The notes under the pieces were generated by a model, which did no database searches, was not told the origin of the DNA, and was given only the letters and a program-made list of their open reading frames with translations. The position numbers were made by a program, and so were the translations under genes. A DNA stretch of 64,000 nt, taken from Tenericutes bacterium MZ-XQ (lineage in GTDB: Bacteria > Bacillota_I > Bacilli_A > Acholeplasmatales > Acholeplasmataceae). Positions 8,315 to 61,538 of this stretch are shown one piece after another. Positions within the stretch are counted from its first letter, which is position 1, and the number at the start of each line of letters is the position of its first letter. Location: the NCBI GenBank assembly GCA_002838205.1, contig CP017950.1, positions 124,001-188,000 on the forward strand. Direction: 5' to 3'.

Positions 8315-8508
8315 GGGAGATACAGAGGCGCAGTTTATTGGTAACTTAAAAGTGATAAGAATTTGATCATTCAATATTTTAAGTGAATGAATAAATTGCC
8401 GAAAATTTAATGAGGATCAAATCATTAGATTTGGTAAGTAAAGGTACACTTTACTTACTGCCATTTTGTAATGGAGAGCTGTGGCATGCAGTTCTCTTTT
8501 TATTTTTT
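8315..8508 (+). promoter_or_regulatory. Lysine riboswitch (L box) with terminator
   Basis: All L-box elements are present. The conserved segment AGAGGCGC starts at 8324. P2 is 8330-8339 with 8390-8399, and P2b is 8344-8351 with 8377-8384. The GCCGAA junction starts at 8398. P3 is 8403-8413 with 8422-8432. A perfect 10-bp stem is 8434-8443 with 8449-8458. A small hairpin (CCATT/AATGG) is at 8461-8474, followed by conserved GGAGAGC. Loop TTTGATC (8362-8368) can kiss loop GATCAAA (8415-8421). The terminator is GAGAGCTG (8474-8481) with CAGTTCTC (8489-8496) plus a T tract. The P1 strand CTGTG (8479-8483), pairing with TACAG (8321-8325), overlaps the terminator's left arm, so ligand-bound P1 should prevent termination. 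Confidence 0.88.
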
Positions 8509-54204: not shown

Positions 54205-55455
54205 TTACTTTTTGTTATCAAATAGATATTTTTTATATAGTTTAACTTGCTCTGGAGTTAAAATTGTTTTGACGTAAGTACCATCAGCTTCAAATCTGGT
54301 TTCTAAGATTGTATTATTATCTTTTAATTGTGAGAAAATATGTCCATCATCAAATGGGATATGTAAATATTGAATACGGCTTTCTTTATAAAGATGTCCA
54401 TAAATTGCATCGATAAGGATATCGATATTTTCTTTGGTTCTATTAGAAACAAAGATATAGTCATCATCAACAGATGGATAATATGGTGCGATTTCTTTTT
54501 TTGTAAGTACCAAAAGTCTCTCTATTTCATCTGCTCCAATGGATTGAAGTACATCTTTTGTTACATCAATCTGCATTGGATCAAAATATGCACCATCGAC
54601 AACATGAATGAGTAAATCAGCATGAATCACGTCACTTAACGTGGATTCAAATGATCGAATTAACTCATGAGGTAGTTTGTTAACAAACCCTACTGTGTCA
54701 ATTAAAATAAATGGTGGCATGTTTTCCTTTTGTAATTTTTTGGCCTTTGTAGATAATGTCGCAAACAACATATCTTTTTCTAAAACTTTATCAGAATCAT
54801 GTCCTAACAGCTCACTTAAACTATTCATAAGTGAAGACTTACCAGCATTTGTATACCCTACAAGTGCAACAACTGGGATTTGATTTTGAACACGTTTTTT
54901 TCTGGAGACTGCCTTTTCTTGTTTAATTTTTTCTAATTCTTGTTTGATTTGATAGATTTCTCTTAATAATTTTCTACGATCTAATTCAAGTTTTGTTTCA
55001 CCAGGTCCTTTTGCATTAAATGTTCCACCGCCTTGTCTTGATAACGTATTACCAAGACCTATAAGTCTAGGGAGCATATAGTTTTTTTGTGCAAGTGCCA
55101 CTTCGAGTTTTGCTTCTTTGGTTTGTGCACGAAGTGCGAAAATAGACATGATAAGAAAACTACGATCCATAATTTGTGTATCTAGATCTTTTTCTAGATG
55201 TTTTAGCTGAGCTGGTGATAAAGTATCATCGAAAATGACCATATCGGCATTCAAGATTTCTATCATCTTTTTGATTTCTTGAACTTTTCCACTGCCTATA
55301 TAGTACTTAGGTGTGATGTGTTTAGCATTTTGTACAACTTTTTCTTTTGTTTTTATACCCAGAGCGAGTGCTAAGTGTTCGAGTTCATCAAGTGACTTAT
55401 GAACACTTTTTTCATTTTGATCAACATTTAAACCGACGAGTATTGCTTGATCCAT
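54205..55455 (-). CDS. hflX: GTPase HflX (ribosome splitting/rescue)
   Basis: 416 residues. HflX splits stalled 70S ribosomes, for example after heat or antibiotic stress. The N-terminal HflX domain (about 1-190) contains KYYIGSGKVQEI and GGTFNAKGPGETKLELDRR. The G domain has G1 GYTNAGKSSL, G3 DTVGF and G4-like LTKKE, with a short C-terminal extension. GAGGTACATAT precedes the ATG. The 5' leader of about 140 bases holds a 12-codon ORF with a strong ribosome binding site (separate entry). Confidence 0.93.
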   Translation of the reverse strand: MDQAILVGLNVDQNEKSVHKSLDELEHLALALGIKTKEKVVQNAKHITPKYYIGSGKVQEIKKMIEILNADMVIFDDTLSPAQLKHLEKDLDTQIMDRSFLIMSIFALRAQTKEAKLEVALAQKNYMLPRLIGLGNTLSRQGGGTFNAKGPGETKLELDRRKLLREIYQIKQELEKIKQEKAVSRKKRVQNQIPVVALVGYTNAGKSSLMNSLSELLGHDSDKVLEKDMLFATLSTKAKKLQKENMPPFILIDTVGFVNKLPHELIRSFESTLSDVIHADLLIHVVDGAYFDPMQIDVTKDVLQSIGADEIERLLVLTKKEIAPYYPSVDDDYIFVSNRTKENIDILIDAIYGHLYKESRIQYLHIPFDDGHIFSQLKDNNTILETRFEADGTYVKTILTPEQVKLYKKYLFDNKK

Positions 55456-55524
55456 ATATGTACCTCTTTTATATTCTAAAGCAAACTGCTCGTAGCGGTT
55501 ATTTTCTAAATAATCGTATGAGCT

Positions 55525-55563
55525 TTAAATTGATAATATTTTTCTTAATTTAGAAATGTTCAT
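55525..55563 (-). CDS. 12-codon leader ORF upstream of hflX
   Basis: On the minus strand AAGGAGG (plus 55571-55577) lies 7 bases before ATG 55561-55563, and the frame MNISKLRKILSI ends in TAA at 55525-55527. The ribosome site is stronger than that of hflX itself. The remaining 69 bases up to hflX can form weak hairpins, but no clear terminator. Ribosome-mediated attenuation with a short leader ORF is known for some HflX-type resistance genes in Listeria; a similar role here is a hypothesis. Confidence 0.45.
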   Translation of the reverse strand: MNISKLRKILSI

Positions 55564-55579
55564 GGGTATACCTCCTTAA

Positions 55580-55630
55580 GTATGCGTGCGCATACGCTTG
55601 TATTATATCTTTTTCTTAAGACAAAGGCAA
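55580..55630 (-). promoter_or_regulatory. hflX promoter with palindrome at transcript start
   Basis: On the minus strand -35 TTGCCT (55625-55630), 17-base spacer, -10 TATAAT (55602-55607). At the expected transcript start is GTATGCGTGCGCATAC (plus 55580-55595), an inverted repeat with a two-base centre that ends three bases before the leader ribosome site. It may be an operator or an RNA hairpin. Confidence 0.65.
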
Positions 55631-55644
55631 TCGCCTATTTAAAT

Positions 55645-55713
55645 ATTCAAAAACGTTTTCATTGAAATTCGAAAACGTTTTCAATAAAATATGTATATAT
55701 ATACATATATAAT
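55645..55713 (+). promoter_or_regulatory. pflB control region: paired cre-like palindromes and -10
   Basis: Two AAAACGTTTT palindromes are centred at 55654/55655 and 55676/55677, 22 bp apart (about two helical turns). The second, TCGAAAACGTTTTCAA, has one mismatch to the cre consensus; the first has two. Next come a perfect 16-bp palindrome ATGTATATATATACAT (55691-55706) and a -10 TATAAT (55708-55713). Confidence 0.65.
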
Positions 55714-55762: not shown

Positions 55763-58018
55763 ATGTCTGCTTGGAGAAAGTTTGTGCAAGGCACATGGAA
55801 TGAAGAAATCAATGTTAGAGACTTTATGTCTTTAAATTATAAAGAATATTTAGGAGATTCATCTTTTTTACAAGGTCCAACACAAAGTAGTTTAAAATTA
55901 AATGAAATGTTTTATGGCTTTTTAGAAGAAGAAAAACAAAAGGGTGGCGTGATTGAACTTGATACAAAAGTTGCAGCTACGCTAACATCCCACGGTCCTG
56001 GTTATATCGATAAAGATTTAGAAAAGATTGTAGGTTTACAAACGGATAAGCCATTTAAAAGAGCGTTCCACCCATTTGGTGGTATTAATGTTGCAGTGAA
56101 AGCTGCAGAATCATATGGTTATCATGTTGATGATGAAACTAAATTCATTTTTAGTGAATATAGAAAAACACATAATCAAGGTGTTTTTGATGTTTACAAT
56201 GCTGATATTAGACGTGCGCGTCGTTCTGGAATTGTAACAGGACTTCCTGATGGATATGGTAGAGGTCGTATTATTGGTGATTATCGACGTGTTGCTTTAT
56301 ATGGTGTTGATCGACTCATTGAAGCAAAGAAAAAAGAAAAAACACGTTATGCATACCCATTAAATGAAAAAAACATTAGATTAAGAGAAGAAATTCAAGA
56401 TCAAATTAAAGCATTAGATATGTTGAAAGCAATGGCTTTATCATATGGTTTTGATATTTCTAAGCCTGCTGCTAATGCTACAGAAGCTGTTCAATGGACG
56501 TACTTTGCTTATTTAGGAGCTGTTAAAGAGCAAAATGGTGCTGCTATGAGTTTAGGTAGAACAGCATCTTTCTTAGATATTTATATTGAAAGAGATTTAG
56601 AAGAAGGTGTTTTAACTGAAGTTGAAGCACAAGAGTTGATTGACCATTTCATCATGAAACTACGTATGATTAGATTTGCTAGAACACCTGAGTATAATGA
56701 ATTATTCACAGGGGATCCAACATGGGTCACTGAAAGTTTGGCTGGTATGAATAATGACGGTAGATCATGGGTTACAAAAAACACATATAGATATTTACAA
56801 ACTTTATATAATTTAGGCACTTCTGCAGAACCTAATTTAACTGTGTTATGGCATAACGATTTACCAGAAAATTTCAAAAAGTTCTGTGGTAAAGTAAGTA
56901 TTGACACAAGTTCTATTCAATATGAGAACGATGATCAAATGAGACCAAATCATGGAGATGATTATGGTATTGCATGTTGTGTATCTCCGATGGCATTAGG
57001 AAAAGAAATGCAATTCTTCGGGGCTAGAGCTAACTTAGCAAAAGCTCTACTTTATGCACTAAATGGTGGGAAAGATGAAATTACGGGTGACCAAGTTTCT
57101 CCAGCATTTGAACCTATTAAAGCTGAAGTGTTAGATTTTGATCAAGTGATGGAAAAATTTGATATCATGCTAGATTGGTTATCAAAAACGTATGTGAGTG
57201 CACTTAACATTATTCATTACATGCATGATAAATATGCATATGAAAGATTGCAAATGGCGCTTCATGATGCAGAAGTTAAAAGAAACTTTGCAACAGGTAT
57301 CGCTGGACTTTCAGTAGTTGCAGATTCACTATCAGCAATCAAGTATGCTCAAGTAAAACCAATTTATGACGATCGAGGTATCATCACTGATTTTGATATT
57401 CAAGGTGAGTTCCCATATTACGGAAACAATGATGATCGAGTAGATCATTTAGCAGTTGATATTGTTGAGCGTTTCATGAGTAAGTTAAGAAAAGAATATA
57501 CATATAGAGAATCAGTACCAACAATGAGTATTTTAACGATTACCTCTAATGTAGTATATGGTAAAAAAACAGGTAATACACCTGATGGTAGAAGAAAAGG
57601 TGAAGCTTTTGCTCCAGGAGCTAATCCAATGCATGGAAGAGATAAATCAGGGGCATTAAAATCATTATTAAGTGTCTCAAAAATCCCTTGTGAAAGTTGC
57701 CAAGACGGAATCTCTAACACATTCACGATGATTCCTGATGCTCTAGGTAAGAGCTTAGAGAGTTCTGATGGGTTCACATATGAAGGCGATATAAAAGTAG
57801 AAAACTTAGTGCAAATATTAGATGGATACTTTAGAAGTGGTGGATATCACTTGAATGTAAACATCTTCAATAGAGAAATGTTAGAAGATGCATATAAACA
57901 CCCAGAGAAATACCCTAATCTTACGATTAGAGTTTCTGGTTACGCTGTTAACTTCTCGAATTTAACAGATGAACAAAAACGTGAGGTTATTTCAAGAACA
58001 TTCCATGAATCTGTATAA
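55763..58018 (+). CDS. pflB: Pyruvate formate-lyase
   Basis: 751 residues. PflB cleaves pyruvate with CoA to acetyl-CoA and formate by a glycyl radical. The two adjacent active cysteines are in [15 protein letters not shown] (about residue 412), and the radical glycine is in [12 protein letters not shown] near the C-terminus. AGGAGG precedes the ATG at 55763. It is followed directly by its activase. It would take the pyruvate released from citramalate or sugars. Confidence 0.97.
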
Positions 58019-61288: not shown

Positions 61289-61318
61289 TTTACAAATGAA
61301 TAAAGATATTGCTATAAT
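61289..61318 (+). promoter_or_regulatory. Promoter of the ppa transcript
   Basis: -35 TTTACA (61289-61294), 18-base spacer, -10 TATAAT (61313-61318). The riboswitch aptamer starts about 15 bases later. Confidence 0.65.
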
Positions 61319-61335
61319 GTTTTTGTATATGATTT

Positions 61336-61538
61336 TCGTATAAGTTATCTGAGATGGAGATAACGTTTCTACCGAAATGCCTAACATTTCGACTACGATT
61401 GTATAAACATTTAGGGGTTGTTTTGCTAACGTAGCATTGATATGCGGATAATTATCATACAAGCGGGATATAGTGGGATAAGTAACATCGTCTATATTTC
61501 TAAAAAACACCTTCACTTTTTTGGGGTGTTTTTTTTCT
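61336..61538 (+). promoter_or_regulatory. Guanine-type purine riboswitch with terminator
   Basis: P1 TCGTA (61336-61340) / TACGA (61394-61398); P2 GTTATCT / AGATAAC with loop GAGATGG; the invariant TTTCTAC junction (61366-61372); P3 CGAAAT / ATTTCG with loop GCCTAAC. The loops can pair through GG-CC. The specificity base corresponding to C74 is C93 of the 61300 block (61393), which points to guanine/hypoxanthine rather than adenine. Terminator: AAAACACCTT (61504-61513) with GGGGTGTTTT (61523-61532). GGTTGTTTT (61416-61424) could act as antiterminator. The roughly 90 bases between form three further hairpins of unknown purpose. The next gene, ppa, starts 47 bases after this region. Confidence 0.85.

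Follow-up and report, generated by a model that had tools for sequence, protein, structure and literature searches.

The single hflX gene of the wall-less Tenericutes bacterium MZ-XQ is preceded by a 12-codon open reading frame (ORF), MNISKLRKILSI, with a strong ribosome binding site, which raises the question of whether this short ORF is a regulatory leader and, if it is, how its translation could set the expression of hflX. The initial annotation of the window (the whole stretch of 64,000 nucleotides analyzed here) described a palindrome, a strong Shine-Dalgarno (SD) sequence, the 12-codon ORF, and a gap of 69 bases between the leader stop and the hflX ATG at 55455; all of these are present on the minus strand (Table 1). 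There is only one copy of hflX in the 2.16-Mb genome. The closest named match of its product is the HflX of "Tenericutes bacterium MO-XQ" (95% identity), and the subsequent named matches belong to Acholeplasmataceae; hflX was detected in 54 out of 88 family genomes and in 85 out of 101 relatives. A pflB-like gene, divergent from hflX, starts at 55763 (the names hflX and pflB, and those of hslO and dusB below, were read off the translations, with no family search behind them).

Table 1. Features of the hflX leader region (window coordinates)
Feature	Position	Strand	Remarks
Sigma-70-like promoter, TTGCCT-17-TATAAT	55602..55630	-	10/12 matches
P0, 5′-terminal hairpin (GTATGCG/CGCATAC), palindrome GTATGCGCACGCATAC	55580..55595	-	Stem kept in 5/5 genus members
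Leader-ORF SD (TTAAGGAGGT)	55570..55579	-	TTAAGGAGGTATANCCATGAA exact in 5/5 genus members, always at the hflX leader
Leader ORF, 12 codons, MNISKLRKILSI	55525..55563	-	ATG at 55563, TAA ending at 55525; counterparts in 25/25 testable genomes, three genera
KLR, leader codons 5-7, +X+ type arrest motif	55543..55551	-	10/25 leaders, spread over four HflX-tree lineages
Hairpin P1 (strand 1 : strand 2)	55488..55523	-	Begins 1 base past leader stop; P(1:2) 0.97 in transcript ending before hflX AUG
Strand 2, AACCG-CU-ACGAG-CAGU-UUGCUU	55479..55500	-	3′ part of P1 plus anti-start strand; pairs with hflX codons 3-9
SD of hflX (AGAGG)	55463..55467	-	Less strong than the leader-ORF SD
Strand 3, hflX codons 3-9 (AAGCAATACTCGTCGGTT)	55431..55448	-	Frozen synonymous sites; best leader target of 200 windows
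hflX	54205..55455	-	416 codons, sole copy in genome

Distribution of the leader ORF

Leaders were called mechanically, by an ATG, an SD match of at least 6, and a short ORF. By this rule a leader ORF precedes hflX in all five members of the window genus (g1), in all 18 testable members of the sister genus (g3; 19 upstream regions were read, of which that of G106 is cut by contig ends, and one of the 18 ORFs starts with GTG), and in both members of g11. Matches are rare elsewhere. Among the other family members we find three in 27 (L070, L071, and L073), the first two of which, judged by eye, fall inside the upstream gene. In samples of the order and the class, from which only some hits were fetched, the counts are zero out of 22 and four out of 40 (L134, L145, L146, and L148), respectively. 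The matches in L134 and L146 are about 300 bases away; those in L145 (MNIRGCIHSIRLRG) and L148 (MRLRR) are of the hflXr type or alike, each on one of two hflX copies. Within the window, 17 genes are preceded by at least 100 bases of intergenic DNA; only two of them, hflX included, show a leader-type match. As the leader ORF is found in all 25 testable genomes from the three genera but seldom outside them, its place before hflX is, on this comparison, not due to chance, and the conservation in relatives on which the initial annotation had made its proposal depend is borne out.

The exact SD motif of the leader occurs once per genome in five genomes, at hflX. A second copy of the leader elsewhere was rejected, the three 3-mismatch matches that we inspected (L127-L129) being ordinary gene starts. 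A search of Rfam returned no plausible family for the leader, and its below-threshold matches are to eukaryotic, sRNA, or viral families at chance level. Elsewhere in the window, a lysine riboswitch (8315-8489) and a purine riboswitch (61316-61415) both score above the gathering score.

Promoter and 5′ hairpin

A TTGNNN-17-TATAAT promoter lies at the equivalent site in all five genus members, 44-53 bases 5′ of the leader ATG. The stem of P0 is retained across these species by differing bases and loop lengths, with pairings such as GTATGAC/GTCATAC and TTGTATA/TATACAA. Because sequence and loop differ between species while the pairing is kept, we rejected the palindrome as a DNA operator. By eye, the 5′ arm of P0 (CGUAUG) could also pair with strand 1 (CAUACG) in L001, L047, and L048, a pairing not kept in L049 and L050.

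Between hflX and the divergent pflB-like gene are two cre-like boxes (AAAACGTTTT cores; 55646-55685). Similar boxes are found in L047, L048, and L050 and none in L049, where tblastn shows no pflB within the fetched flank. Read against the cre consensus, the boxes probably represent CcpA-type control of pflB.

Leader peptides and candidate inducers

The leader peptides are 10-16 residues long and diverse in sequence. With respect to the conservation of the leader peptide, which the initial annotation had named as a check, the ORF is kept in all 25 genomes but the KLR motif in only 10 of the 25 leaders: L001, L047, and L048 in g1, and L083, L052, L055, L076, L051, L059, and L060 in g3. KLR lies at codons 3-7 of these leaders, and on an HflX tree that does not settle the deep branching order and does not include L083 they are spread over four lineages. 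The remaining 15 leaders, including two out of five in the window genus (L049 and L050), have neither KLR nor RLR, and RLR is not found in the window's own leader. Motifs of the form Arg/Lys-X-Arg/Lys (+X+) are described as sites of macrolide and ketolide arrest, where the ribosome halts with X in the P site (PMC8298421).

The 23S rRNA change G2057A is described as associated with intrinsic resistance to 14-membered macrolides in mycoplasmas and is noted in Acholeplasma laidlawii (PMC8615230). The 23S rRNA here reads GACGAAAAGACC, that is, 2057A, in 33 out of 33 matches. Of 61 sampled family genomes, 20 contributed these matches and 41 had no hit to the 23S pattern, perhaps often because drafts lack the rRNA. 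Both 23S copies L130 and L131 (G000:C1:209415-209441 and 1629555-1629581) carry 2057A, and position 2611, in the numbering that we assume, seems to be U in L130. Since the 23S rRNA carries 2057A, inducers of the erythromycin type (14-membered macrolides) are unlikely on the rRNA sequence; given 2057A and the apparent U at 2611, the cue is more probably a 16-membered macrolide, a lincosamide, a pleuromutilin, or general arrest than erythromycin.

Hairpin P1 and the search for a terminator

In the five genus members, P1 starts 1, 1, 8, 6, and 6 bases past the leader stop. Its first base keeps a position of 40-42 from the AUG, even as the ORF shortens from 12 codons to 10. The folded RNA past the stop mostly opens, in the other genera too, with a stem near the stop, made of different bases. 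The folding of the leader past the stop is on average more stable than that of shuffled sequences (26 out of 26 z-scores negative), and P1 alone falls below 0.05 against shuffles in three of the 26 single leaders. The hflX SD is located outside P1.

The initial annotation saw no convincing terminator between the two ORFs. This holds in all five genus members, where we found none with a simple T-run rule, albeit an insensitive one that yields only a weak candidate even in a Listeria-type leader with a documented terminator. Transcription attenuation in the window genus was rejected on the strength of this weak test, as no terminator was found. In the sister genus, L057 and L077 have a terminator-like hairpin, gagaccatacaagggtctt and then TTTATTTT, with T-rich tails, and some members of that genus may use transcription attenuation. 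In other leaders of the sister genus, for example L062, L063, and L083, the 5′ strand of P1 is able to pair with the leader's own SD.

Complementarity between the leader and hflX codons 3-9

In g1 the 3′ strand of P1 and the bases that follow it (AACCG..ACGAG....UUGUU) are complementary to codons 3-9 of hflX, which supports the earlier suggestion that control could be at translation. Strand 2 and strand 3 are paired in 95% of 80 cells, compared with 29%-49% when the strands are slid against each other. Within codons 2-18 of hflX, all 11 codons that are informative for synonymous change are identical in the five species; for the other 286 informative codons of the gene this is the case in 25%. 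The same test on neighboring control genes, with four species each, gave 5/8 for pflB, 6/14 for hslO, and 4/13 for dusB. None of 400 column shuffles matched the mean duplex energy between the leader and the start (p = 0.0025), and the hflX start is the top-ranked target among 200 windows along the gene and also the first of 195 in a further ranking. Synonymous codon shuffles in single species gave mixed results (ranks 6, 24, 74, 1, and 26 of 300). Because the 2:3 pairing hardly varies, covariation is silent and gives no proof of it. The locus would be a case in which frozen synonymous codons mark a regulatory pairing.

Outside g1 the pairing to the hflX start is weak, with best ranks of 4, 6, and 14 of 195 in three clades and none in the others, and a clade-swap test gave p = 0.20. 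In many leaders of the sister genus, L062, L063, and L083 among them, a GAUCC recurs in the 3′ strand of P1 and matches the AUGGAUC of the hflX start, and shuffle tests on the longest match are mostly not significant in these leaders. A universal anti-start pairing was rejected, and we claim the pairing for the window genus only, since the shuffle tests are mostly null elsewhere, the clade swap gives little, and the ranking of windows backs only some of the clades.

Predicted folding and ribosome geometry

The pairings of strand 2 with strand 1 (1:2) and with strand 3 (2:3) are predicted to be mutually exclusive. In transcripts that end before hflX, P(1:2) is 0.97-0.99 in four species and 0.13 in L048. 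When the hflX start is included, 2:3 dominates in L001, L047, and L048, and 1:2 dominates in L049 and L050. With a terminating ribosome modeled on the leader, 1:2 is gone and 2:3 reaches 0.69-0.94 in all five. L049 and L050, the two genus members without KLR, fold into 1:2 when naked (0.76-0.99) and into 2:3 with the terminating ribosome (0.69-0.84). The window's own leader, in equilibrium folding, is in 2:3 both naked (0.86-0.88) and with a ribosome stalled at KLR (0.85-0.93). Since it stays in 2:3 under the stall, an ON state would require co-transcriptional capture of 1:2; in our model the ON state under stall would presumably be trapped during transcription. The accessibility of the hflX SD and AUG shows almost no change between the two states in the folding model.

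Counted from the first base of the codon in the P site, the leading edge of a ribosome lies 16 bases downstream. Stalled at KLR with Leu in the P site, the ribosome would extend to base 25-31; the first base of P1 is at 37-44, which leaves the ribosome 9-19 bases short of the hairpin in 10 out of 10 KLR leaders. The edge of a terminating ribosome is at 43-52 and enters P1 in all 12 leaders measured. The same rule places the RLR stall of L145 at base 49, with the hairpin at 48, and that of L148 at 22, with the hairpin at 21. A KLR stall that falls short of P1 and an RLR stall that just touches the hairpin indicate that the wiring here differs from that in Listeria. This geometry predicts a polarity opposite to that of Listeria.

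Proposed mechanism and alternatives

The reading that we consider best, and somewhat probable, is a translational attenuator in which a ribosome that finishes the leader melts P1 and lets the anti-start pairing form and an early halt spares P1. The hflX transcript would start at P0 and carry the strongly initiated leader ORF as a sensor of translation. In the ON state, strand 1, directly past the leader stop, would pair with strand 2 to form P1 and leave the hflX start free; in the OFF state, strand 2 would pair with strand 3 and place the hflX SD and AUG in the loop of a long hairpin. A ribosome at the leader stop would reach into P1 and release strand 2 for strand 3. If the ribosome halts at or before KLR, or if there is none, strand 1 would be free to hold strand 2. 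Failure of early elongation would in this way bring about the synthesis of HflX, a factor that splits stalled ribosomes. Among these parts, comparison between species supports the leader ORF, the promoter, P0, P1, and the frozen 5′ codons of hflX complementary to strand 2; translation of the leader, the assignment of ON to one of the pairings, arrest at KLR, and the inducing stress are what we infer. Several results speak against this reading: the window's own leader folds mostly into the OFF pairing whether or not a ribosome is stalled, the predicted accessibility of the hflX start barely changes, 1:2 is low in L048, the single-species codon shuffles are mixed, P1 by itself is seldom significant, the pairing fades outside g1, 15 leaders (two of them in the window genus) lack KLR, and 2057A disfavors 14-membered macrolides as inducers.

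The trigger could also be wider than an arrest at KLR. The leader may sense general translation capacity (initiation, termination, recycling) and not a drug, through the same exchange of 1:2 and 2:3, frequent translation of the leader holding hflX down and KLR being one lineage-specific refinement. We regard this as a tentative alternative; it overlaps the best reading and differs from it in the trigger. The length of the ORF (10-16 codons), the SD, and the hairpin all persist although 15 out of 25 peptides lack KLR, the switch from 1:2 to 2:3 on termination is predicted in the KLR-less L049 and L050 as well, and the 2057A of the 23S rRNA speaks against 14-membered macrolides. On the other side, the recurrence of KLR in four lineages at codons 3-7 would be unlikely without a role for the specific peptide. 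It is conceivable, if short of an even chance, that this is an attenuator of reversed polarity: completion of the leader would turn a housekeeping hflX off via an anti-start strand in the coding region, any failure of early elongation or of initiation would turn it on, and the leader would act as a largely peptide-independent sensor of ribosome trouble that feeds the sole HflX.

The polarity of Listeria is an unlikely alternative to the attenuator that we favor. In the rli80/hflXr leader of Listeria monocytogenes, control is described as transcription attenuation in which a stalled ribosome prevents a terminator (PMC6310831); by analogy, P1 or a hidden terminator would be the OFF element here, and a drug-stalled ribosome on the leader would melt P1 and induce hflX. 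The order of parts is as in that documented leader and in L145 and L148, where a hairpin follows 2 bases past the stop; the +X+ motif is common to both; and terminator-like hairpins with T-rich tails are found in L057 and L077. Yet a ribosome stalled at KLR would not reach P1 in any of the 10 KLR leaders, while the RLR stall in L145 and L148 touches the hairpin, the window genus is without a detected terminator, and the hflX SD is not in P1. That there is no switch at all, the leader ORF loading ribosomes near the 5′ end and stabilizing the mRNA together with P0, with the frozen codons due to another constraint, we consider decidedly improbable. P0 is conserved and sits where the transcript is predicted to start, and the folding model gives no clear change in the accessibility of the hflX start, as this account would have it, but it leaves unexplained why strand 2 is complementary to hflX codons 3-9 and why KLR recurs.

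Relation to known leader systems

The hflX leader resembles translational attenuators of the ermC and ermD type in its predicted exclusive RNA pairings, which would control the start of the next gene. The putative +X+ arrest would be shared with the ermD attenuator as described (PMC8298421). Unlike the erm genes, hflX does not encode a methyltransferase, and the anti-start strand is predicted to pair with codons 3-9 and not with the SD.

With rli80/hflXr the locus shares a short leader ORF with a +X+ motif before an HflX gene and a hairpin directly past the stop (as in L145). The Listeria system, as far as the cited account goes, has a terminator, a second, resistance-type copy of hflX, and RLR at codons 11-13 of 14, where the stall reaches the hairpin. 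In contrast, hflX is here the sole copy, KLR lies at codons 5-7 (3-7 in relatives), the stall falls short of the hairpin, no terminator was found, and the pairing extends into the hflX coding region. The parallel with Listeria that the initial annotation drew is therefore real, the L145 leader type having been recovered, but the data do not support carrying its mechanism over unchanged, given the absence of KLR from 15 out of 25 leaders (two out of five in the window genus), the opposite stall geometry, the sole hflX, and the 2057A of the 23S rRNA.

The uORFC-6-1 motif, as described, places an upstream ORF (uORF) ahead of hflX; it is found mostly in Bacillales, and its peptide has a conserved Arg-Leu-Arg (PMC8632094). 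Compared by its description rather than by its alignment, it has in common with the present leader a uORF and structure downstream of the uORF start codon, before hflX; the peptide differs, being KLR or neither motif here. Like toiL-topAI of Escherichia coli, reported as a uORF-based translational control that senses several kinds of ribosome arrest (PMC12121999), the leader would respond at the level of translation; in toiL, however, the stalled ribosome itself breaks a repressive hairpin (PMC12121999), and the trigger proposed here would be a failure to reach the end of the leader.

Among the open-licence papers listed by our searches, none describes an hflX leader in the Acholeplasma family in its title or the opening of its abstract. 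Leader-controlled HflX has, in the sources cited, been described for Listeria (the resistance copy) and mainly for Bacillales; here leader control seems to govern the sole HflX of a relative of the Mollicutes. The leader ORF ahead of it is real and conserved, and the candidate RNA switch is of a known kind, though the RLR and the extra copy that are features of Listeria and uORFC-6-1 are not found. Among the class-level genomes, L148 (G134:C77) has two hflX genes and carries, before one copy, the five-codon MRLRR leader and a hairpin, a minimal hflXr-like leader.
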